Part shown: positions 3,787 through 51,203 of the stretch, piece by piece
How the letters are laid out: each line of letters starts with the position of its first letter
How positions within the stretch are numbered: position 1 is the stretch's first letter
Made by a program: the position numbers and the translations under genes
NCBI RefSeq assembly: GCF_001570945.1
Contig: NZ_BCSQ01000022.1
Span: 1 to 51,203, forward strand
Source: Janibacter anophelis NBRC 107843
Lineage (GTDB): Bacteria; Actinomycetota; Actinomycetes; Actinomycetales; Dermatophilaceae
DNA: 51,203 nt
Direction: 5' to 3'
The notes under the pieces: generated by a model
Seen by the model: the letters and a program-made list of their open reading frames with translations, nothing else
What the model was told of the DNA's origin: nothing
Database searches by the model: none

Positions 3787-5034
3787 ATGACCGCCACTCT
3801 CGAGCGCACCACGCCCCGCACGACCGACGCCCGCATCACGGGCGGGCGGTCCGAGACGATCCACACGGTCGTCAACATGCACGACTCGCCGATCTCCCAC
3901 CTCAGCCCGGAGCAGATCGAGGAGCTCGGCCGCGAGCTCGACGAGATCCGCGCGTCCGTCATGGACGACCTCGGCGAGACCGACGCCCGCTACATCCGCC
4001 GGATGATCGCCACCCAGCGCTACCTCGAGATGGGCTCGCGCGCGGTGCTGCTCTTCAGCGGCAACCCGATCGCGTGGGTCGCGGGCACCGCCGGCCTGAG
4101 CGTCGCCAAGATCCTCGACAACATGGAGATCGGGCACAACATCATCCACGGCCAGTGGGACTGGATGCGTGACCCCAAGATCCACTCCTCGACGTGGGAG
4201 TGGGACAACGTCACCCCGGCGGACCACTGGAAGAACAGCCACAACAAGGTGCACCACACCTACACCAACGTCGTCGGCCACGACAACGACCTGGGCTACG
4301 GGATCATGCGGGTCGACGACGCGCAGAAGTGGTACCCCGGCTACCTCATCCAGCCGTTCACGCAGTTCCTCAACGCGACCTTCTTCGAGTACGGCATCGC
4401 CGCGTACGACCTGGAGCTCGGCAAGAACTGGCCGACCCGCCACGACAACCCGCAGTGGCGCGCCGAGGCCGGCAAGGTCGTCAACAAGATCAAGAAGCAG
4501 GCCGCGAAGGACTACCTGCTCTTCCCGCTGCTCTCGGGCCCGAACTTCGCCTCGACCCTGGCGGCGAACTTCGTCTCGAACATCGCGCGCAACTACTGGA
4601 CGCACTCGGTCATCATGTGCGGGCACTTCCCGGCCGGGGTCAAGACCTTCACCAAGACCTCGATCGACGGGGAGACCCGCGGCGAGTGGTACCTGCGCCA
4701 GATGCTCGGCTCCGCCAACATCTCCGGGTCGAAGGCCATGCACATCATGACCGGCAACCTCAGCTACCAGATCGAGCACCACCTCTTCCCGGACATGCCG
4801 AGCCGCCGCTACCAGCAGATCGCCCCGCAGATCCGCGCGCTCTTCGACAAGTACGAGCTCGACTACGTGACGGGCCCGCTGCCCAAGCAGGTCGCCTCCG
4901 CGTGGAGCGAGATCATCCGCCTCTCCCTGCCCAACGACACCTCGCTGCTGCAGACGATCAACATCCTGCGGACGAAGGGGATGAAGGGCCTGAAGGCGCG
5001 CGCTCGCGCCACCCGCTTCCGCCTGGAGTCCTGA
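3787..5034 (+). CDS. Membrane fatty acid (acyl-CoA) desaturase, DesA3-like
   Basis: 415 residues from ATG 3787. The three histidine boxes that bind the di-iron centre are present: HNIIH (117-121), HNKVHH (152-157) and QIEHHLFP (His331, His332). Hydrophobic segments around residues 80-105 and 255-275 fit an integral membrane enzyme. Known role of the family: oxygen-dependent insertion of a cis double bond (usually delta-9) into saturated acyl chains, using electrons from the reductase encoded 2 nt upstream. The translational closeness and shared layout with Rv3230c/Rv3229c make the partnership convincing. Regulation by the divergent PucR protein is plausible. Two or more palindromic repeats follow the stop codon. 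Confidence 0.93.
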   Translation: MTATLERTTPRTTDARITGGRSETIHTVVNMHDSPISHLSPEQIEELGRELDEIRASVMDDLGETDARYIRRMIATQRYLEMGSRAVLLFSGNPIAWVAGTAGLSVAKILDNMEIGHNIIHGQWDWMRDPKIHSSTWEWDNVTPADHWKNSHNKVHHTYTNVVGHDNDLGYGIMRVDDAQKWYPGYLIQPFTQFLNATFFEYGIAAYDLELGKNWPTRHDNPQWRAEAGKVVNKIKKQAAKDYLLFPLLSGPNFASTLAANFVSNIARNYWTHSVIMCGHFPAGVKTFTKTSIDGETRGEWYLRQMLGSANISGSKAMHIMTGNLSYQIEHHLFPDMPSRRYQQIAPQIRALFDKYELDYVTGPLPKQVASAWSEIIRLSLPNDTSLLQTINILRTKGMKGLKARARATRFRLES

Positions 5035-5039
5035 CCGCA

Positions 5040-5231
5040 ACGTTGGTCGAGGTGTGAGTTCGCGCAGCGAGCGAGCCTCGAGACCCGGTGACCCAGCGTT
5101 GGTCGAGGTGTGAGTTCGCGCAGCGAGCGAGCCTCGAGACCCGGCGGCCGAGGGCTTCGAGCCTCGGGCGCGGACGCCCTCGCACCTCAGCCAGCGTGTG
5201 TGGGGCAGGGACGCCCTCACGCCTCAGTCAG
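5040..5231. repeat. Cluster of three to four palindromic repeat copies
   Basis: Copies at 5040-5085 and 5094-5142 are almost identical (GTTGGTCGAGGTGTGAG to GAGCCTCGAGACC). A third runs 5152-5199 in the opposite sense and a partial fourth covers 5202-5231 (CCCTCACGCCTCAGTCAGCG). They fill the gap between the convergent desaturase and galE, so they may act as bidirectional terminators. Confidence 0.85.
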
Positions 5232-6460: not shown

Positions 6461-6763
6461 TCAGCCCTCGGTCGAGATCTGCCGGACCTGGGTGACCTCG
6501 CTCCACGACCCGTCCTCGCAGATCGTGGTGATGCGCTCCATGATCGTCGCGCGCAGGCGCGGGGGAGCGGGCTCACAGGCGCAGGAACGCTGGACGAGAT
6601 CCCGCAGGACCCGGTCGAGGTCGTGCTCGGCGAGGCAGGGTGCGCAGTTGGCCAAGTGTGCGGCCAGAGCCTTGGTGTCGTCGAAGGTCATCTCGCCGTC
6701 GACGTACTCCATCATCCGGTAGAGCGCCTGGGAGCAGTCCATGTGCGCGTCGTCGTGGCTCAT
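6461..6763 (-). CDS. rsrA: Mycothiol-system zinc anti-sigma factor (RsrA-like)
   Basis: 100 residues. Cys10, His36, Cys40 and Cys43 (HLANCAPC) correspond, one residue offset, to the zinc/redox centre described for Streptomyces RsrA. A second pair, Cys61 and Cys63, is also present. Known mechanism: the reduced zinc form holds SigR inactive; disulfide stress ejects zinc, forms a disulfide and frees SigR; thioredoxin resets it. The start ATG overlaps the sigR stop codon by 4 nt (ATGA), so the pair is translationally coupled and made in balance. Size and layout are normal for the family. Confidence 0.93.
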
Positions 6764-7410
6764 GACCCGCTCCCCTTCGCAGCGGCGACGCCCCGGTCGG
6801 CGGCGTAGTCGGTGAGCATCTCGCGCAGCTGGCGCCGACCGCGGTGCAGCCGCGACATGACGGTGCCGATGGGCGTGCCCATGATCTCGGCGATCTCCTT
6901 GTAGGCGAAGCCCTCGACGTCGGCGAGGTAGACCGCCATCCGGAAGTCCTCCGGCAGCTCCTGCAGGGCCCGCTTGACCTGCGTGTCGGGCATGCGGTCC
7001 AACGCCTCGACCTCGGCCGAGCGCAGGCCCTTGGAGGTGTGCTGCTCCGCCTTGTGCAGTTGGTAGTCCTCGACCTCGGGGGAGTCGGACTGCTTCGGCT
7101 CGCGCTGCTTCTTGCGGTAGCTGTTGATGTAGGTGTTGGTGAGGATGCGGTACATCCACGCCTTGAGGTTGGTGCCCGGCTTGTACTGGTGGAACGCCGC
7201 GAACGCCTTGGCGAAGGTCTCCTGGACCAGGTCCTCGGCGTCGGTCGGGTTGCGCGTGGTGCGCAGCGCGGCGGAGTACAGCTGGTCGAGCAGCGGCATC
7301 GCCTCGCGCTCGAACCGTGCGCGTCGCTCCTCGGTGGTCTCCTGGGCGACGTCGACGGCAGCGTCGGCCGCAGCCTGCGCGGCACTCTCGTCGGTCGTGG
7401 GATCAGTCAT
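6760..7410 (-). CDS. sigR: ECF RNA polymerase sigma factor SigR/SigH (thiol-oxidative stress)
   Basis: 216 residues from ATG 7410. Region 2 is visible as [17 protein letters not shown] with [16 protein letters not shown]. Region 4 is visible as [17 protein letters not shown], then [19 protein letters not shown] and HRGRRQLRE. This sequence is characteristic of SigR of Streptomyces and SigH of mycobacteria. It directs transcription of thioredoxin, mycothiol and protein-quality genes under disulfide stress. It overlaps rsrA by 4 nt. Its own SigR-type promoter lies about 95 nt upstream, giving positive autoregulation. The frame is open a further 47 codons upstream, but those residues do not look conserved, so the long SigR' form is not proposed. 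Confidence 0.95.
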
Positions 7411-7606: not shown

Positions 7607-7681
7607 TCAGGCGTTGGGCTTCTTGCCGTGGTTCGCGGCCTTGCCCTTGCGCGAGCGACGCTTGCGGGCGCGCTTGCTCAT
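7607..7681 (-). CDS. Ribosomal protein bL37 (24-residue actinobacterial large-subunit protein)
   Basis: A 24-codon gene. The peptide begins MSKRARKRRSRKG and ends ANHGKKPNA, with no acidic residue and half of it Lys or Arg. This closely matches bL37, the tiny protein seen in the Mycobacterium smegmatis 50S subunit (pattern KRGRKKR...ANHGKRPN). It binds 23S rRNA in the large subunit. AAGGAG sits 7 nt before the ATG, a strong ribosome-binding site, and a stable hairpin follows the stop, so it looks like a complete monocistronic gene. It is easily missed by gene callers because of its size. It is separate from the sigR transcript. Confidence 0.88.
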   Translation of the reverse strand: MSKRARKRRSRKGKAANHGKKPNA

Positions 7682-7806: not shown

Positions 7807-7813
7807 AGGACCC

Positions 7814-8032
7814 GTGAAGAAGATCATCGCGATGCTCGCAGCCTCTGCCGCAGCCCTGTCGCTCTCCGGCCTCCTCGGCCTGCAGACCGTCGCAAGTTGG
7901 GACTGGGCCGGGACCACAGCGGACAGCTGGGACTGGGCCAACCTGACAGCCGACAGCTGGGACTGGGCCGGATCGTCCGACGACAGCTGGGACTGGGCGG
8001 CACCTGAAGCGTCCACGACACTCGCCGGCTGA
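7814..8032 (+). CDS. Secreted Trp-rich repeat peptide (four SWDWA repeats), unknown function
   Basis: 72 residues from GTG 7814. Residues 1-27 are a clear Sec signal: MKKIIAML, a hydrophobic Ala/Leu core, then LQTVA, giving likely cleavage after Ala27. The mature part would start exactly at the first of four 10-residue repeats (28-67) of pattern SWDWAxxxxD; the last repeat ends AS and is followed by TTLAG. The mature peptide is about 45 residues with eight Trp, eight acidic and no basic residues, and no Cys, so it is not a lanthipeptide-like precursor. It matches no family I know. The stop codon overlaps the proposed CTG start of the next gene, so it heads an operon with two membrane HD-domain proteins. 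A signalling or cell-surface peptide sensed by them is an inference. Confidence 0.7.
   Translation: MKKIIAMLAASAAALSLSGLLGLQTVASWDWAGTTADSWDWANLTADSWDWAGSSDDSWDWAAPEASTTLAG
7895..8014 (+). repeat. Four 30-bp coding repeats of the SWDWA peptide
   Basis: Units at 7895-7924, 7925-7954, 7955-7984 and 7985-8014. The first half of each unit (AGCTGGGACTGGGCC or near) is almost invariant, while the second half varies (GTTAD, NLTAD, GSSDD, APEAS). Confidence 0.95.
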
Positions 8033-9276
8033 CGACCACCAAGAGGACGACACCCTCGGGAGCGACCGAACGACGGTCGACCCGGGGTTATGTCTTTGCC
8101 GTCGGCGCCCTGGCGCTCCTGTCGCTCCTGGCCGCACTCCTCTGGTCAGGGCCGCCCCAACGCTGGGGTTGGGTGGCCGCGCTGCTCGCGGTGGCCCTGA
8201 TCGCTGCCCTCGGCCGACCCCAGGCCATCGGGCCTCTCCAGGTGTCGACATCTGGCATCGTGCAGATCGCGTCCATACCGCTGCTCGGGCCCGTGGGGGC
8301 CGCTCTCGTCGGGGCCCTGCCGGTGGTCGTCGATCGCAACGAGCCGCTCAAACGTCTGTACAACGCCAGCCAGCGCGTGATCTTCCTCCTCGCGGGCGCG
8401 ACGGTCTACGTGGCCGTCGGGGGACGCACGCTCACTGCGGGGGCCGATGACATCGGCCCCCTGACGCTCGCCGTGGCCATGGGGTGCGCATCCATGTCCG
8501 TGGCCCTGGTCAATGTCGTCCTGCTCTCAGGGGTGCTGCAGCGCAGCAACGCCGGCTCGCTGCGGGCTATCGGCACCGATCTGTTGCGCCAGATCGTCCC
8601 GTCGTACGTGAGCTACGCCGTCGCCGCCTATCTCCTGGTCATCCTCTGGGCCCCGGGTGGCCTCGATTGGGCTTCGATCCTCTTCTTCCTCCCGTCGATC
8701 CTGTCGATCCAGTGGGGCCTGCACCAGCACGCGGACCTGTGGGCCACCCGCCACGAGCTGCTCACCCCCTTCGTCCGCGCGCTCGACCTGCGCCACCCGG
8801 GCGCCGCCGACGAAGCCCGCCTCGCAGCCGGTGCCGCCACCTCCGTGGCGACCGGCATCGGCCTCTCGCCGGACGAGATCGACCGGGTGACGACCGCCGC
8901 CCGCCTGCGCGACGTCGGCATGCTCGCCCTCGACGGGGCGCCCGCCGCGATCGTGCGCCGCGACCACTCGACGGCGGCGCGCGAGGTCATCGGGGCGGTG
9001 ACCTTCCTCGAGTCGACCCTGGCCGTCATCGACGGTCACCACGAGCGGATCGACGGCGGCGGGCAGCCCGCCGGCCTGAGCGGGCCCCACATCCCGGTCG
9101 GGGCCAAGGTCGTGGCCGTCGCCGACACCTGGGCCCACCTCGTGGCCGAAGGGTGGTCCGCACCCGACGCGGTCGACCACTGCGAGTCGGTGGCCGGCCG
9201 GATGCTGGACGGCGAGTGCGTCGCCGCGCTGCGGCGCGCGCTGGAGCGCGAACAACTGCCCGGGGGAGCGTCATGA
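8029..9276 (+). CDS. Membrane protein with degenerate HD-GYP domain (HHE half kept, HD lost)
   Basis: 415 residues if it starts at CTG 8029, which overlaps the peptide stop as CTGA. There is no ATG, GTG or TTG in frame until GTG 8173, and that later start would remove the first membrane helix. About seven hydrophobic segments fill residues 18-235. A cytosolic HD-GYP-like domain follows. The metal-binding HD is replaced by Arg294-Asp295 (LRDVGMLAL). The second half survives as HHERIDGGGQPAGLSG (His337, His338), with GGQP in place of GYP, followed by IPVGAKVVAVADTWAHL. Active HD-GYP enzymes hydrolyse cyclic-di-GMP; this one lacks the first ligands and may sense or pair with the next protein. 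It overlaps that gene by 4 nt. Confidence 0.8.
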   Translation: MTTTKRTTPSGATERRSTRGYVFAVGALALLSLLAALLWSGPPQRWGWVAALLAVALIAALGRPQAIGPLQVSTSGIVQIASIPLLGPVGAALVGALPVVVDRNEPLKRLYNASQRVIFLLAGATVYVAVGGRTLTAGADDIGPLTLAVAMGCASMSVALVNVVLLSGVLQRSNAGSLRAIGTDLLRQIVPSYVSYAVAAYLLVILWAPGGLDWASILFFLPSILSIQWGLHQHADLWATRHELLTPFVRALDLRHPGAADEARLAAGAATSVATGIGLSPDEIDRVTTAARLRDVGMLALDGAPAAIVRRDHSTAAREVIGAVTFLESTLAVIDGHHERIDGGGQPAGLSGPHIPVGAKVVAVADTWAHLVAEGWSAPDAVDHCESVAGRMLDGECVAALRRALEREQLPGGAS

Positions 9277-10535
9277 TCGCCGGGCTGCGCGCCCGCCCGG
9301 GCCTCGTCCTCTTCGGCATCGCCGTGATCGTCGGCTCGATCGCCGCGGTCCAGGCCGAGGTGACGGGGGAGATGGTCACCCCCTTCGCCGTCGTGGCACT
9401 CGTCGCGATCGTCCTCGGCGAACAGGTGCCGCTGCGCATCTCCCGACGCAACATCGCGCCCCTCACCACGGCCCCCGCGCTCGGCATGATCCTCTCGCCG
9501 CTCGGCGACAGCAGTGGTCAGGTGCCGTCCGCGTGGACGGTGCTCGCCGTCGTCTGGCTGAGCATCCTCGTCGGCGGGCTGCTCGCCCGGCTGCGCGGCA
9601 TCTCGGTCGTCGAGGGTTCGCTCGGCTCACGGTTCATCGCGATGGCAGTGACCACGTACTTCGCCCGGGGCATCGTCGTCGAGGGGCAGACCCTCGTGGA
9701 CTGGGCCTTCGCCGCCGACGTCCACCCGGGCATCGGCGCGACGGGCCTCTTCATCGCGGCCCTCGGCGGTGGCCTCGTGGAGCGCGTCGTCGACAACCTC
9801 GTCCAGCTCGTCGGCGAGGGACGCCCCCTCGCCCACATCGTCGCGGCCGAAGCCGGCCCGATCGCCGGCATCTCTGCCGCGACCGTGGCCTCCGGGCCGC
9901 TCATCGCGCTCGCCAAACCGGTGCTCGAGTGGGCGGCGATCCCGCTGCTGCTCGTGCCGGTGCTCGTCGCCTACTTTTCCGTCCGGCGGCTCGTCACCAT
10001 CCGCCAGGCGCTCGACGAGTCGCTGCTCGCGCTCTCGCGCCTGCCCGAGGTCGTCGGGCTCACACGCACCGGCCACGTGCGCCGGGTCACCGCCCTCGCC
10101 TGCGAGATCGGGCAGGAGATGGGCCTCGACGCCCATGGTCTGCACGACGTCGAGCGCACCGCGCTGCTCCACGACCTCGGCCAGCTCGCCCTCGACGAGC
10201 CCCTGCGCGGCGGCGCGACGATCCACTCCAGCGGCCACGAGGACGCGCAGATGGCCAGAGCCGCGCACCTGCTGCTCGACGACACCCCGCAGCTGGCGGA
10301 CCTCGCGCCGCTCGTCGCGCACGTGGGCACACCCTTCCGCCGCAGCCGGGAGTTCGGCGAGCACATCCCGCTCGCCTCACGCATCGTGCGCGTGGCCAAC
10401 GCGTGGGACGACATCACCGAAGGTGCCCGCTCGCCCCGCGCCCGCACCATCGCCCTCGAGCGGCTGCACCTCGGGCTCGGATACGACTACGACCCGGAGG
10501 TCGTCTCCGCGCTCGAGCGGGCGCTGGAGTTGTAG
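9273..10535 (+). CDS. Membrane protein with HD domain (HD kept, GYP half lost)
   Basis: 420 residues from ATG 9273, overlapping the previous stop (ATGA). The first ~245 residues hold six to seven hydrophobic segments. A cytosolic HD phosphohydrolase-like domain follows, with His300-Asp301 in LLHDLGQLALDEP and a downstream GHEDAQMARAA His. Where HD-GYP proteins have HHERxDGxGYP, this protein has AHVGTPFRRS, so that half is lost, although IPLASRIVRVANAWDDI is kept. The defect is the mirror image of that in the previous protein, which suggests a composite active site or a heterodimeric receptor. The pair plus the secreted SWDWA peptide form one transcription unit. Substrate is unknown. Confidence 0.8.
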   Translation: MIAGLRARPGLVLFGIAVIVGSIAAVQAEVTGEMVTPFAVVALVAIVLGEQVPLRISRRNIAPLTTAPALGMILSPLGDSSGQVPSAWTVLAVVWLSILVGGLLARLRGISVVEGSLGSRFIAMAVTTYFARGIVVEGQTLVDWAFAADVHPGIGATGLFIAALGGGLVERVVDNLVQLVGEGRPLAHIVAAEAGPIAGISAATVASGPLIALAKPVLEWAAIPLLLVPVLVAYFSVRRLVTIRQALDESLLALSRLPEVVGLTRTGHVRRVTALACEIGQEMGLDAHGLHDVERTALLHDLGQLALDEPLRGGATIHSSGHEDAQMARAAHLLLDDTPQLADLAPLVAHVGTPFRRSREFGEHIPLASRIVRVANAWDDITEGARSPRARTIALERLHLGLGYDYDPEVVSALERALEL

Positions 10536-10540
10536 GTCGC

Positions 10541-10584
10541 GTCCCTTCGAGACGCTTGCTGCGCAAGCTCCTCAGGGAGCGCTA
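10541..10584. repeat. Variant palindromic repeat between convergent genes
   Basis: CCCTTCGAGACGCTTGCTGCGCAAGCTCCTCAGGGAGCG, with the inner palindrome GCTTGCTGCGCAAGC. It is related to, but distinct from, the main repeat. It lies in the 46-bp gap between the HD gene and the protease and could terminate both. Confidence 0.6.
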
Positions 10585-12477
10585 TCGCCAGATCGTCGTC
10601 ATCGCCGTGGTCCGCGACCCCGTCGTGTAGCCGGTGCGGCGGGCGGTGACCTTGGCGTGGATCTTGTTGCCCCTGTCGCTGCTCGTCAGCCGGTAGGTCT
10701 TGGCCGTGCGGCCGGAGAGGGCGACGCCGTTGCGGTACCACTGGTACGAGTAGCGCTCGGGCTTCGGCGTCCACGCGCCGACCATGACGGTGAGCGTGTG
10801 GCCGGTGGTGGCGGTGCCGTGCAGGTAGGGCCGCTTCGTCGCGTAGATCGGGATGCCGACGCTCGCGCTCGTGCGCGAGCGGGTCGTGTATCCGGTGCGG
10901 GTGACCTCGACCCGCACCGAGATCTGCCGGCCGGCGTCGGCGGTCGTCGGGGTGTAGGTGCGGCTCGTGGCGCCGGGGATGTTCACGCCGTTGCGCTTCC
11001 ACCGGTACGTGTAGCGCGACGGCGTCGGCGACCACGTGCCGGTGGAGGCGGTGAGGCGCTGGCCGACCCCCTTCGTCCCCGTGATCCGCGGAGCCTGCGT
11101 GAGGGTGAAGCTGCCCAGCCGCGACGTGTTGTCGATCCGCACGACCGCCTGGCCGCTGCTCGTGGACTCGGTCGTGAACTTCACCCGGCCGTCGTAGCTG
11201 GTGAGGGTGGCGCCGGGCGCCAGCGCCACCCGTCGGTCGAGGGTGCCGGTGGGGGTGGGGTCGAGCACGACGGACCCGGACCACGAGCTCGTGCGCAGCA
11301 CCCGCACCCCGGTGTCCTGGCCGGCCGGGTTGGAGGCGTCGCGCCCGGTGGGGGTGCGGTACTCGACCCAGTAGCGCGCGTTGGTGTTGACGTTGGTCAC
11401 GACCGCGGCCCGGGTGCCCTCGCCACCGGAGAGCGGGCTGAGCGTCACCCGCGTCGTGCCGTGGCCCACCTGCACCGCGGACGAAGGGGGCAGCAGCCCG
11501 TGCCGCAGCGCCTGCGGGGTCGAGAGCATGGGCAGGTCGTCCTCGGAGGAGGGGCCCATGATGTCGAGCGAGTCGCCGTACTCGGCCTCGTCGCACGAGG
11601 TCCACCAGTCGGCGGAGGTGTCGTACGCCGAGTCGGAGCGGCCCGAGCAGACGAGCGCGCTGGCGTGCTCGAGCGACATGTTGTGGCCGAGCTCGTGGGC
11701 GAGCACGGGGGCGGCGATGTCGGCGACGTGCAGGACGCCGGCGGAGTTGGGGTTCTCACCGATGAGGCCGAGCCCGTAGCCGCACTCGGGGCCGGAGTCG
11801 AAGGGCAGCTTGAGCACGAGCGAGGCGTTGTCCCGCCACTCCCAGCCGGTGCGCAGGAGCGCTTCGTTCCACAGGTCGAAGGGGTCGTCCGAGCACCAGT
11901 ACGCCGACGTGTAGCGCGGGGCGAACGTCGGCGCCCCGATGCGCAGCTCGCCGCGGGACTGGTCGCGCCAGTAGGAGTCGGTCGCCGCGACCTGCGCGGT
12001 CGCCTGGGCCGTCGAGACCGCCTCACGGGGGTAGCCCTGCGGCGTGACCTCGACATAGGTGATCCGCCGGGTCGCGGGCACGTAGGTGGCGCTGCTCGCC
12101 TGCTGCGCCTCGACGACGCGGGTCACCTGCAGCGGCGCGGTGCCGGGAGCGACGGCGTGGGCCGTGGTCGCCGCGGCGAGGTCGGTGCCCGGCCGCGCCT
12201 TCGCGACGACGGCGCTCGGGGCGCGCACGTCGAGCTCGACGGTGGAGCCCGCCGGGGTGTCCGCCAGACCGGCGCCGGTCACGGGGACGAAGCGGTCGCC
12301 GGTGACCACGGCGAAACGCGGGGTGTCCCCCCTTCGCTCGACGGAGGTGCGCACGAGCTCACCGGTGAGGCGGACGCTGGCGTCCGTGGCGGTCGGCTCG
12401 TCGGCTGTCGCGACGGCGGTGGAGCCGACGACGAGGCCGGCGGCGAGCAGGGTGGGGAGGAGGCGACGAGCGCGCAT
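10582..12477 (-). CDS. Secreted zinc metalloprotease of the metzincin type with two C-terminal repeat domains
   Basis: 631 residues from ATG 12477 (a GTG lies one codon upstream). A signal peptide (MRARRLLPTLLAAGLVVG to ATA) is followed by a propeptide-like region. The catalytic zinc motif HELGHNMSLEH (His261, Glu262, His265, His271) and a later SLDIMGP Met-turn identify a metzincin. From about residue 450 come two ~85-residue repeats. Each begins with a GTxxxGxxLT-like stretch, carries a GTWSPTPSRYTYRWKRNG-type core and ends near GYTTxSRT; they are beta-sandwich repeats common in secreted actinobacterial proteins and probably bind the cell surface. It is likely an exported protease of peptides or proteins; the substrate cannot be told. 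It is divergent from the malic enzyme gene. Confidence 0.88.
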   Translation of the reverse strand: MRARRLLPTLLAAGLVVGSTAVATADEPTATDASVRLTGELVRTSVERRGDTPRFAVVTGDRFVPVTGAGLADTPAGSTVELDVRAPSAVVAKARPGTDLAAATTAHAVAPGTAPLQVTRVVEAQQASSATYVPATRRITYVEVTPQGYPREAVSTAQATAQVAATDSYWRDQSRGELRIGAPTFAPRYTSAYWCSDDPFDLWNEALLRTGWEWRDNASLVLKLPFDSGPECGYGLGLIGENPNSAGVLHVADIAAPVLAHELGHNMSLEHASALVCSGRSDSAYDTSADWWTSCDEAEYGDSLDIMGPSSEDDLPMLSTPQALRHGLLPPSSAVQVGHGTTRVTLSPLSGGEGTRAAVVTNVNTNARYWVEYRTPTGRDASNPAGQDTGVRVLRTSSWSGSVVLDPTPTGTLDRRVALAPGATLTSYDGRVKFTTESTSSGQAVVRIDNTSRLGSFTLTQAPRITGTKGVGQRLTASTGTWSPTPSRYTYRWKRNGVNIPGATSRTYTPTTADAGRQISVRVEVTRTGYTTRSRTSASVGIPIYATKRPYLHGTATTGHTLTVMVGAWTPKPERYSYQWYRNGVALSGRTAKTYRLTSSDRGNKIHAKVTARRTGYTTGSRTTAMTTIWR

Positions 12478-51176: not shown

Positions 51177-51203
51177 CCCCCCCCCCCCCCCCCCCCCCCC
51201 CCC
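51177..51203. other. Run of 27 C at the window end, probable assembly artefact
   Basis: The window ends in an unbroken C-run with no following sequence. Such a tract is unlikely to be stable in a high-GC chromosome and resembles a contig end or polymerase artefact. Confidence 0.7.

Follow-up and report, generated by a model that had tools for sequence, protein, structure and literature searches.

A tryptophan-motif peptide gene ahead of paired membrane HD-domain proteins in Janibacter anophelis suggests an unrecognised peptide signalling system

The window analyzed here, the whole 51,203-nucleotide contig NZ_BCSQ01000022.1 of Janibacter anophelis NBRC 107843, contains a three-gene operon in which a short, exported-looking peptide with repeated tryptophan (Trp) motifs is encoded directly ahead of two membrane proteins ending in HD domains, HD1 and HD2. 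This arrangement suggests a peptide signalling system that has so far gone unrecognised. On balance, we read the operon as a module of peptide partner and membrane phosphohydrolase, in which the peptide would be the cognate ligand or a membrane partner of the HD pair. The initial annotation had made conservation of the peptide beside the HD pair in relatives a test of this idea, and such conservation was found throughout the levels of genus and family and, in part, at those of class and phylum. Because the peptide is conserved in this context across all these ranks, the proposal that it is a partner of the pair is well supported, while the further proposal, that it acts on them as ligand on receptor, is one that we infer.

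Results

The peptide-HD operon

The three genes are coupled, as first described, through CTGA and ATGA overlaps, with HD1 at 8029-9276 and HD2 at 9273-10535 on the forward strand. The peptide gene (7814-8032, same strand) begins with a GTG codon three bases downstream of an AGGA (7807-7810), ends with a TGA stop (8030-8032), and specifies 72 residues (VKKIIAMLAASAAALSLSGLLGLQTVASWDWAGTTADSWDWANLTADSWDWAGSSDDSWDWAAPEASTTLAG); relatives support its assignment. Its N-terminus is formed by two lysines and a hydrophobic segment, and residues 1-27 (7814-7894) resemble a signal peptide when judged by eye, with a candidate (-3,-1)-rule cleavage site, TVA/S, immediately before the first SWDWA. Putative sites in a similar position are present in Janibacter relatives (QAA/SYDWA, SQA/NIDWA and RAA/SVDWA). 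The repeat region (7895-7999) holds four SWDWA units, starting at 7895, 7925, 7955 and 7985 and hence spaced by 30 nucleotides, joined by linkers of variable sequence; both the Trp/Asp-rich repeats and, by eye, the signal-peptide-like start of the original description were thus borne out. The sequence TGGGACTGGGC occurs six times in the 3.3-Mb genome, four of these being the units of the window peptide. Neither this peptide nor ten diverse members matched Pfam or NCBIfam above cut-off, a single signal peptide matched the lactococcin 972 model, weakly and below cut-off, and a plasmid collection searched with the window peptide gave no match. At the RNA level, the window locus yielded no terminator-like site, no Rfam match, and a folding z-score of 0.02; with all of these checks negative there, a Trp attenuator or riboswitch is disfavored at this locus.

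HD1 (HdgA-like) overlaps the peptide stop codon through the CTGA at 8029-8032. As its frame has no ATG, GTG or TTG ahead of the GTG at 8173, and a start at 8173 would cost the first predicted helix, the CTG is the likely start codon. The same junction was present in four of five Janibacter loci compared (the window, L077, L096 and L098), and the peptide of the fifth (L078) ends in TAA. Both HD1 (E 4.4e-15) and HD2 matched Pfam HD_5, and AlphaFold2 gave confident models (predicted local distance difference test, pLDDT, of 92 for HD1 and 94 for HD2), each with a helical N-terminal domain and an HD domain, in agreement with the early description of two membrane proteins ending in HD domains. Using Foldseek, the C-terminal half of HD1 was matched to the HD-GYP phosphodiesterases 9rbz, 4mcw and 4r8z. 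The membrane half of its predicted model aligned over approximately 160-200 columns with the S components of energy-coupling factor (ECF) transporters for riboflavin, thiamin, folate and biotin (target TM-score 0.51-0.69, probability 0.94-1.00), but with weak E-values (0.05-0.8) and only 11-18% identity; we refer to this predicted domain as S-component-like. The MASE9 sensor domain (PF20972) was matched by eight of 58 HD1 relatives, and window HD1 gave no match to it.

The HD-GYP domain of window HD1 is degenerate, with E262 in place of the GHS histidine, R294 in place of the HD histidine, and GQP in place of GYP. Across the HD1 alignment, the GHS-His column is kept in 41 of 58 sequences and the HD-His column in 52 of 58, all five Janibacter rows shown having arginine at the latter. 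The catalytic core of HD2 (HdgB-like; H268, H300-D301 and D380), which overlaps HD1 through ATGA, is intact and is kept in all 51 aligned sequences, while a GYP motif, sought in the window HD2 sequence, is absent; credible structural matches of HD2 were to HD-GYP proteins only, and its nearest matches among named records were in Janibacter sp. Soil728 (68% identity) and J. terrae (61%). At 81 of the 83 family loci, HD2 comes after HD1; contig ends cut the remaining two (L016 and L028). Since HD1 and HD2 share a single uninterrupted reading frame in four family loci (L062, L066, L067 and L072), the two proteins probably work together. Compared with the window, four Janibacter relatives were 47-67% identical in the HD1 membrane domain, 42-79% in the HD2 membrane domain, and 92-94% in the neighboring SigR.

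Species-specific units in Janibacter

HD1 was present in all 16 genomes of the genus, as grouped by the tool used, and an intact repeat peptide lay upstream of it in 14 of the 15 with upstream sequence; the contig of the other genome (G792) is cut inside HD1. Each peptide contains between one and 10 unit copies, of the types SWDWA/SYDWA, NYEWA/NWEWA/NFEWA, GADWA, GFDWA/GLDWA, SVDWA, NVDWA, NIDWA, NVEWA, NVDWV and GYDWA, with two deviant units (SFDWR and SLDWG) in G787 and G789. The linkers vary and the units are nearly constant: in the 14 genomes, identical pentamers made up 152 of 190 pairs within a genome (80%) and 97 of 2366 pairs between genomes. None of 5000 permutations of the units, made without regard to kinship, reached the observed value, the best giving 21%. 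Given a motif that differs between species but hardly at all among the copies within a precursor, the module probably tells self apart from non-self.

Janibacter sp. HTCC2649 (L126), placed outside the genus by the tool, has a different peptide that ends in GWTW. In G784, two matches on one 3.5-Mb contig (G784:C1:75602-76813 and 3480283-3481494) had the same score, identity and query range, perhaps reflecting an unclosed circular overlap.

Conservation beyond the genus

HD1 was found in 88 of 99 family genomes, 83 of which supplied the family loci (G035, G062, G079, G085 and G087 were left out). Outside the family, occurrence of the pair is patchy. With window HD2 as the query, 23 of 149 genomes of the order matched, with 11 matches below 1e-30; an Actinomadura HD2 matched 115 of 296 genomes of the class, and a query from another class member matched 213 of 296 genomes of the phylum, many through the HD domain only. 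Loci of the order, class and phylum were chosen by hand from the matches listed (4, 60 and 20 stretches, respectively) and are therefore a non-random sample. Upstream peptides were called by a rule that required (i) an ATG or GTG start, (ii) a Shine-Dalgarno-like word, (iii) a length of 11-130 residues, (iv) Trp among the last eight residues, and (v) a stop codon between 350 bases before and 60 bases after the start of the HD1 domain. Loci that lacked HD1 or upstream sequence were skipped (1, 3, 2, 0 and 1 in the five locus sets).

This rule called a peptide at 66 of the 82 loci of the family, at 67 of the 77 named ones, and at 39 of the 48 from the order and class (a Streptomyces-like group excepted), relative to 9.9%, 12.1% and 18.1%, respectively, of dinucleotide shuffles (20 per locus), and to nine, seven and four loci on the reverse strand; these calls are by the rule alone, and some of the positive loci could be chance matches. 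A W-x-W motif within the last 12 residues, found in 44 of 82, 45 of 77 and 23 of 48 of these loci, was rarer still among shuffles (0.24%, 0.52% and 0.94%) and did not occur on the reverse strand. The named and family sets overlap, 34 of 80 named loci having an upstream region identical to that of a family locus. Eight of 19 phylum loci, a set outside the shuffle and reverse-strand controls, were also positive. The window peptide itself is missed by the caller because its tail is longer. When loci without a call were read by eye, post hoc, a candidate peptide was seen in all 16 from the family and in eight of nine from the order and class; two of the 10 such named loci were re-read (L096 and L098), and both had a peptide.

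Forms of the peptide

The peptides of the family include signal-peptide forms, amphipathic forms without a signal peptide, hydrophobic forms, and repeat precursors, the last for example with five copies of GYHNWEPKA (L022), four of SVLTWRP, two of FNGWLP or several of AWSWGPQS. Precursor genes occur in tandem at L018 (three), L024 (four) and L153; at L153, from Actinopolymorpha alba, several tiny tandem open reading frames (ORFs) ending in GGYEWG or GFDWG lie ahead of HD1. In other families, most forms have 20-35 residues and a single Trp motif, and in several of them no signal peptide is recognizable by eye. Examples within the class are MKKITAAVERMLSAEAAWSWR, MSKLVSAVERFLSSGAGWSWH, MFASMFVAAMYGVFMASAFTGWTWW, and the Actinomadura peptide ending ...SLMMTKGVSWV, and other classes have forms of 24-29 residues, such as MKRVFAVLATLAAMFLAAGAHARW and MKTKIIVLLTSLAALVLGGGAGWRW; in one group outside the class, the peptide ends without Trp (...AGGAGSRMG). 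The build that unites a signal peptide with numerous repeats represents an elaboration within a lineage. For 15 groups of relatives chosen by hand, with one pair taken per group, the pooled synonymous divergence (pS) was 0.30 and the pooled replacement divergence (pN) was 0.15.

Neighborhood of the operon

The window operon consists of the peptide gene and the HD pair alone, with no exporter, modification enzyme, processing protease or response regulator in the operon. Divergent to it, on the reverse strand, are a 24-residue gene (7607-7681), whose product we take to be a bL37-type ribosomal protein, and a gene at 6760-7410, presumably encoding a SigR-like sigma factor, with an adjoining RsrA-like reading frame. 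A strict pattern located a bL37-type gene close to HD1 at 24 of the 83 family loci, and in the four probable Streptomyces loci that were read the HD pair is downstream of sigR-rsrA on the same strand. A shared upstream promoter element was considered and dropped: the commonest k-mers resemble the neighboring bL37 gene, and CGAACG was found in just 40 of 178 upstream stretches. Three Streptomyces-like loci without a peptide (L245, L248 and L254) have a common, possibly regulatory motif around CGAACGTGCTAATCC before HD1 (CGAATG in L254). Elsewhere in the window, a 56-nucleotide tandem repeat occupies 5032-5144, and a stretch beside the end of HD2 (approximately 10540-10590) resembles it (TCGAGACGCTTGCTGCGCAAGCT); the contig closes with 27 consecutive C (51177-51203), possibly an assembly artefact.

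Discussion

In the module that we envisage, the peptide gene, which most often encodes an export or membrane-insertion segment with a short Trp-motif tail, would be translated just ahead of HD1 and HD2. The Trp motif would arrive at the outer membrane face, whether set free by processing (each Janibacter precursor possibly yielding several units) or still tethered, and would be recognized by the S-component-like membrane domain of HD1, by HD2, or by both. Occupancy would then alter the cytosolic HD domains and hence a second-messenger nucleotide, which in lineages whose HD1 is intact would most likely be cyclic di-GMP. We favor a recognition signal because the units are species specific and near-identical, precursors are multi-copy, the membrane domains evolve fast, and the fold predicted for HD1 may be of a ligand-binding type. 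More tentatively, and short of an even chance, the unmodified-looking, ribosomally made Trp-motif peptide may act as ligand directly on a membrane HD-GYP pair across several actinobacterial classes, signalling to a cyclic-dinucleotide phosphodiesterase without a histidine kinase, with Janibacter and its relatives using a self-recognition code of multi-copy precursors whose species-specific units evolve in concert.

Several observations weigh against the module as envisaged. What any export model chiefly leaves unexplained is the lack of an evident signal peptide in the MKxIAKVLESML and GYHNWEPKA types of peptide; export is therefore not general. As flanking genes were not systematically annotated across loci, an exporter or protease has been neither found nor excluded. 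Window HD1, judging from its substituted motifs, looks catalytically dead. Within Janibacter, the NHE-type repeat peptide of one draft genome (G788, L359) is broken by a stop in its first unit, through either real loss or sequencing error, and recent tandem duplication could account for part of the identity of units within a genome. Low replacement change is not universal: the ratio was 1.28 in one group of three and 0.92 and 0.81 in two others, and an Actinomadura pair had four replacement and no synonymous differences. In the order, the HD2 type is rare outside its own family (four of the 11 matches below 1e-30). Among the phylum loci that failed the peptide rule, seven of 11 have a similar peptide whose tail is without Trp, and no candidate was seen in four of the 19 loci read. 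Finally, the rule called a peptide in one of 14 Streptomyces-like loci, which is the background level (10.0% of shuffles, and one locus on the reverse strand), a W-x-W motif was found in none of the 14 (1.07% of shuffles), and no peptide was found in the four of the 13 rule-failing loci that were inspected. The label Streptomyces-like is itself probable, being based on the neighboring sigR-rsrA genes in the four loci read, among other grounds. Because the HD pair occurs without the peptide in this probable Streptomyces group, the pair can exist alone.

Among the alternatives, the best survivor, although improbable, is that the peptide is never released and serves as a structural or regulatory micro-subunit of an HD1-HD2 complex, with its Trp tail at the outer face. 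A tethered regulatory subunit retains this share of probability because other classes have tiny forms; further, many forms of other families have 20-30 residues comprising one hydrophobic or amphipathic helix and a short tail. Arrays of four to 10 units, and precursors without a hydrophobic helix (such as the five GYHNWEPKA copies of L022), misfit a stoichiometric subunit. A shade less probable is a cis-acting leader, in which the ORF would be translated solely to control HD1, by translational coupling or nascent-chain arrest, and the peptide itself would be functionless. The ORF does end near the HD1 start, overlapping it in the window, where HD1, lacking a standard start codon, might rely on coupling, and the Trp and Trp-x-Pro close to the C-terminus are reminiscent of TnaC and SecM. 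Control purely in cis is nevertheless the less likely reading because the window has no RNA feature of the kinds sought and repeats would be superfluous; multi-copy units, tandem precursor genes, units that vary between species but are constant within a genome, and signal-peptide forms would likewise be unexpected, and at many loci tens of bases separate the end of the ORF from the HD1 domain, a distance taken to the domain rather than to a mapped HD1 start codon. An antimicrobial or toxic peptide, with the HD pair as an immunity or regulatory device, is very unlikely: the peptide is small, exported-looking, Trp-rich and variable between species, but the window operon has neither exporter nor modification enzyme, antimicrobial peptides are typically cationic, unlike the acidic DWA units, and the lactococcin 972 match is weak and below cut-off. 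Chance short ORFs in GC-rich DNA can be rejected, for although Trp-ended ORFs arise in 10-18% of shuffles, the observed rates are several-fold higher and the units are conserved genus-wide.

If the peptide is indeed the partner of a sensing HD pair, it provides a concrete candidate input for proteins of the HdgA/HdgB type, and a simple, apparently unmodified peptide with a membrane partner would be experimentally tractable in Janibacter. Little is known of peptide signalling in this phylum; according to the abstract of PMC4748050, quorum sensing has been reported for 25 of 342 genera. Neither the HD-GYP family nor its type of membrane sensor is new. In the open-licence literature searched, we recognized no description, among the matches listed, of a peptide paired with HD-GYP proteins, and the peptide family, its wide attachment to the HD pair and its species-specific repeat code were not found described. 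The initial annotation's statement that it knew of no described family accordingly stands for the peptide, while the HD pair has a described counterpart in HdgA and HdgB, which share its layout.

Comparison with known systems

According to PMC6205966, HdgA and HdgB of Streptomyces venezuelae (vnz24090/vnz24095) are likely encoded in one operon, each with six transmembrane segments (6TM) and an HD-GYP domain, the motif being intact in HdgA and GYP being absent from HdgB. The mutant phenotypes led to the judgment there that these proteins are not involved in development, and their authors think that the activating signals were likely missing (PMC6205966; see also PMC13232838). The family layout described here is likewise a membrane HD-GYP protein in tandem with a GYP-less membrane HD protein, and the probable Streptomyces loci also hold an HD1-HD2 tandem; from this layout we infer that they are hdgA/hdgB. 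The window differs in that its HD1 is also degenerate, and the probable Streptomyces group differs in that no peptide gene was seen upstream.

Two comparisons bear on the membrane half of HD1. MASE9, by its name a sensor domain that precedes signalling enzymes, is shared by some HD1 relatives, whereas window HD1 falls below a match; the word MASE9 was absent from the open-licence literature searched. The S components of ECF transporters have a ligand-binding fold with which the predicted HD1 membrane domain aligns, but HD1 bears an HD-GYP domain, and the low identity and weak E-values noted above apply. SecM and TnaC, which are arrest leaders, resemble the peptide gene as short ORFs just upstream with Trp near the C-terminus; they differ from it in the repeats, in the species-specific units, and in that no RNA switch was detected in the window.

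The peptide pheromone cassettes of Gram-positive bacteria, such as ComX-ComP and AgrD-AgrC, place a precursor gene beside that of a polytopic membrane protein, with a species-specific peptide and fast-evolving membrane proteins. The operon described here similarly sets a precursor gene beside a candidate membrane receptor and has a species-specific peptide. It departs from these cassettes in that the window operon includes no processing protease or response regulator, its precursors can be repeat arrays, and its putative receptor is of the HD-GYP type rather than a histidine kinase.

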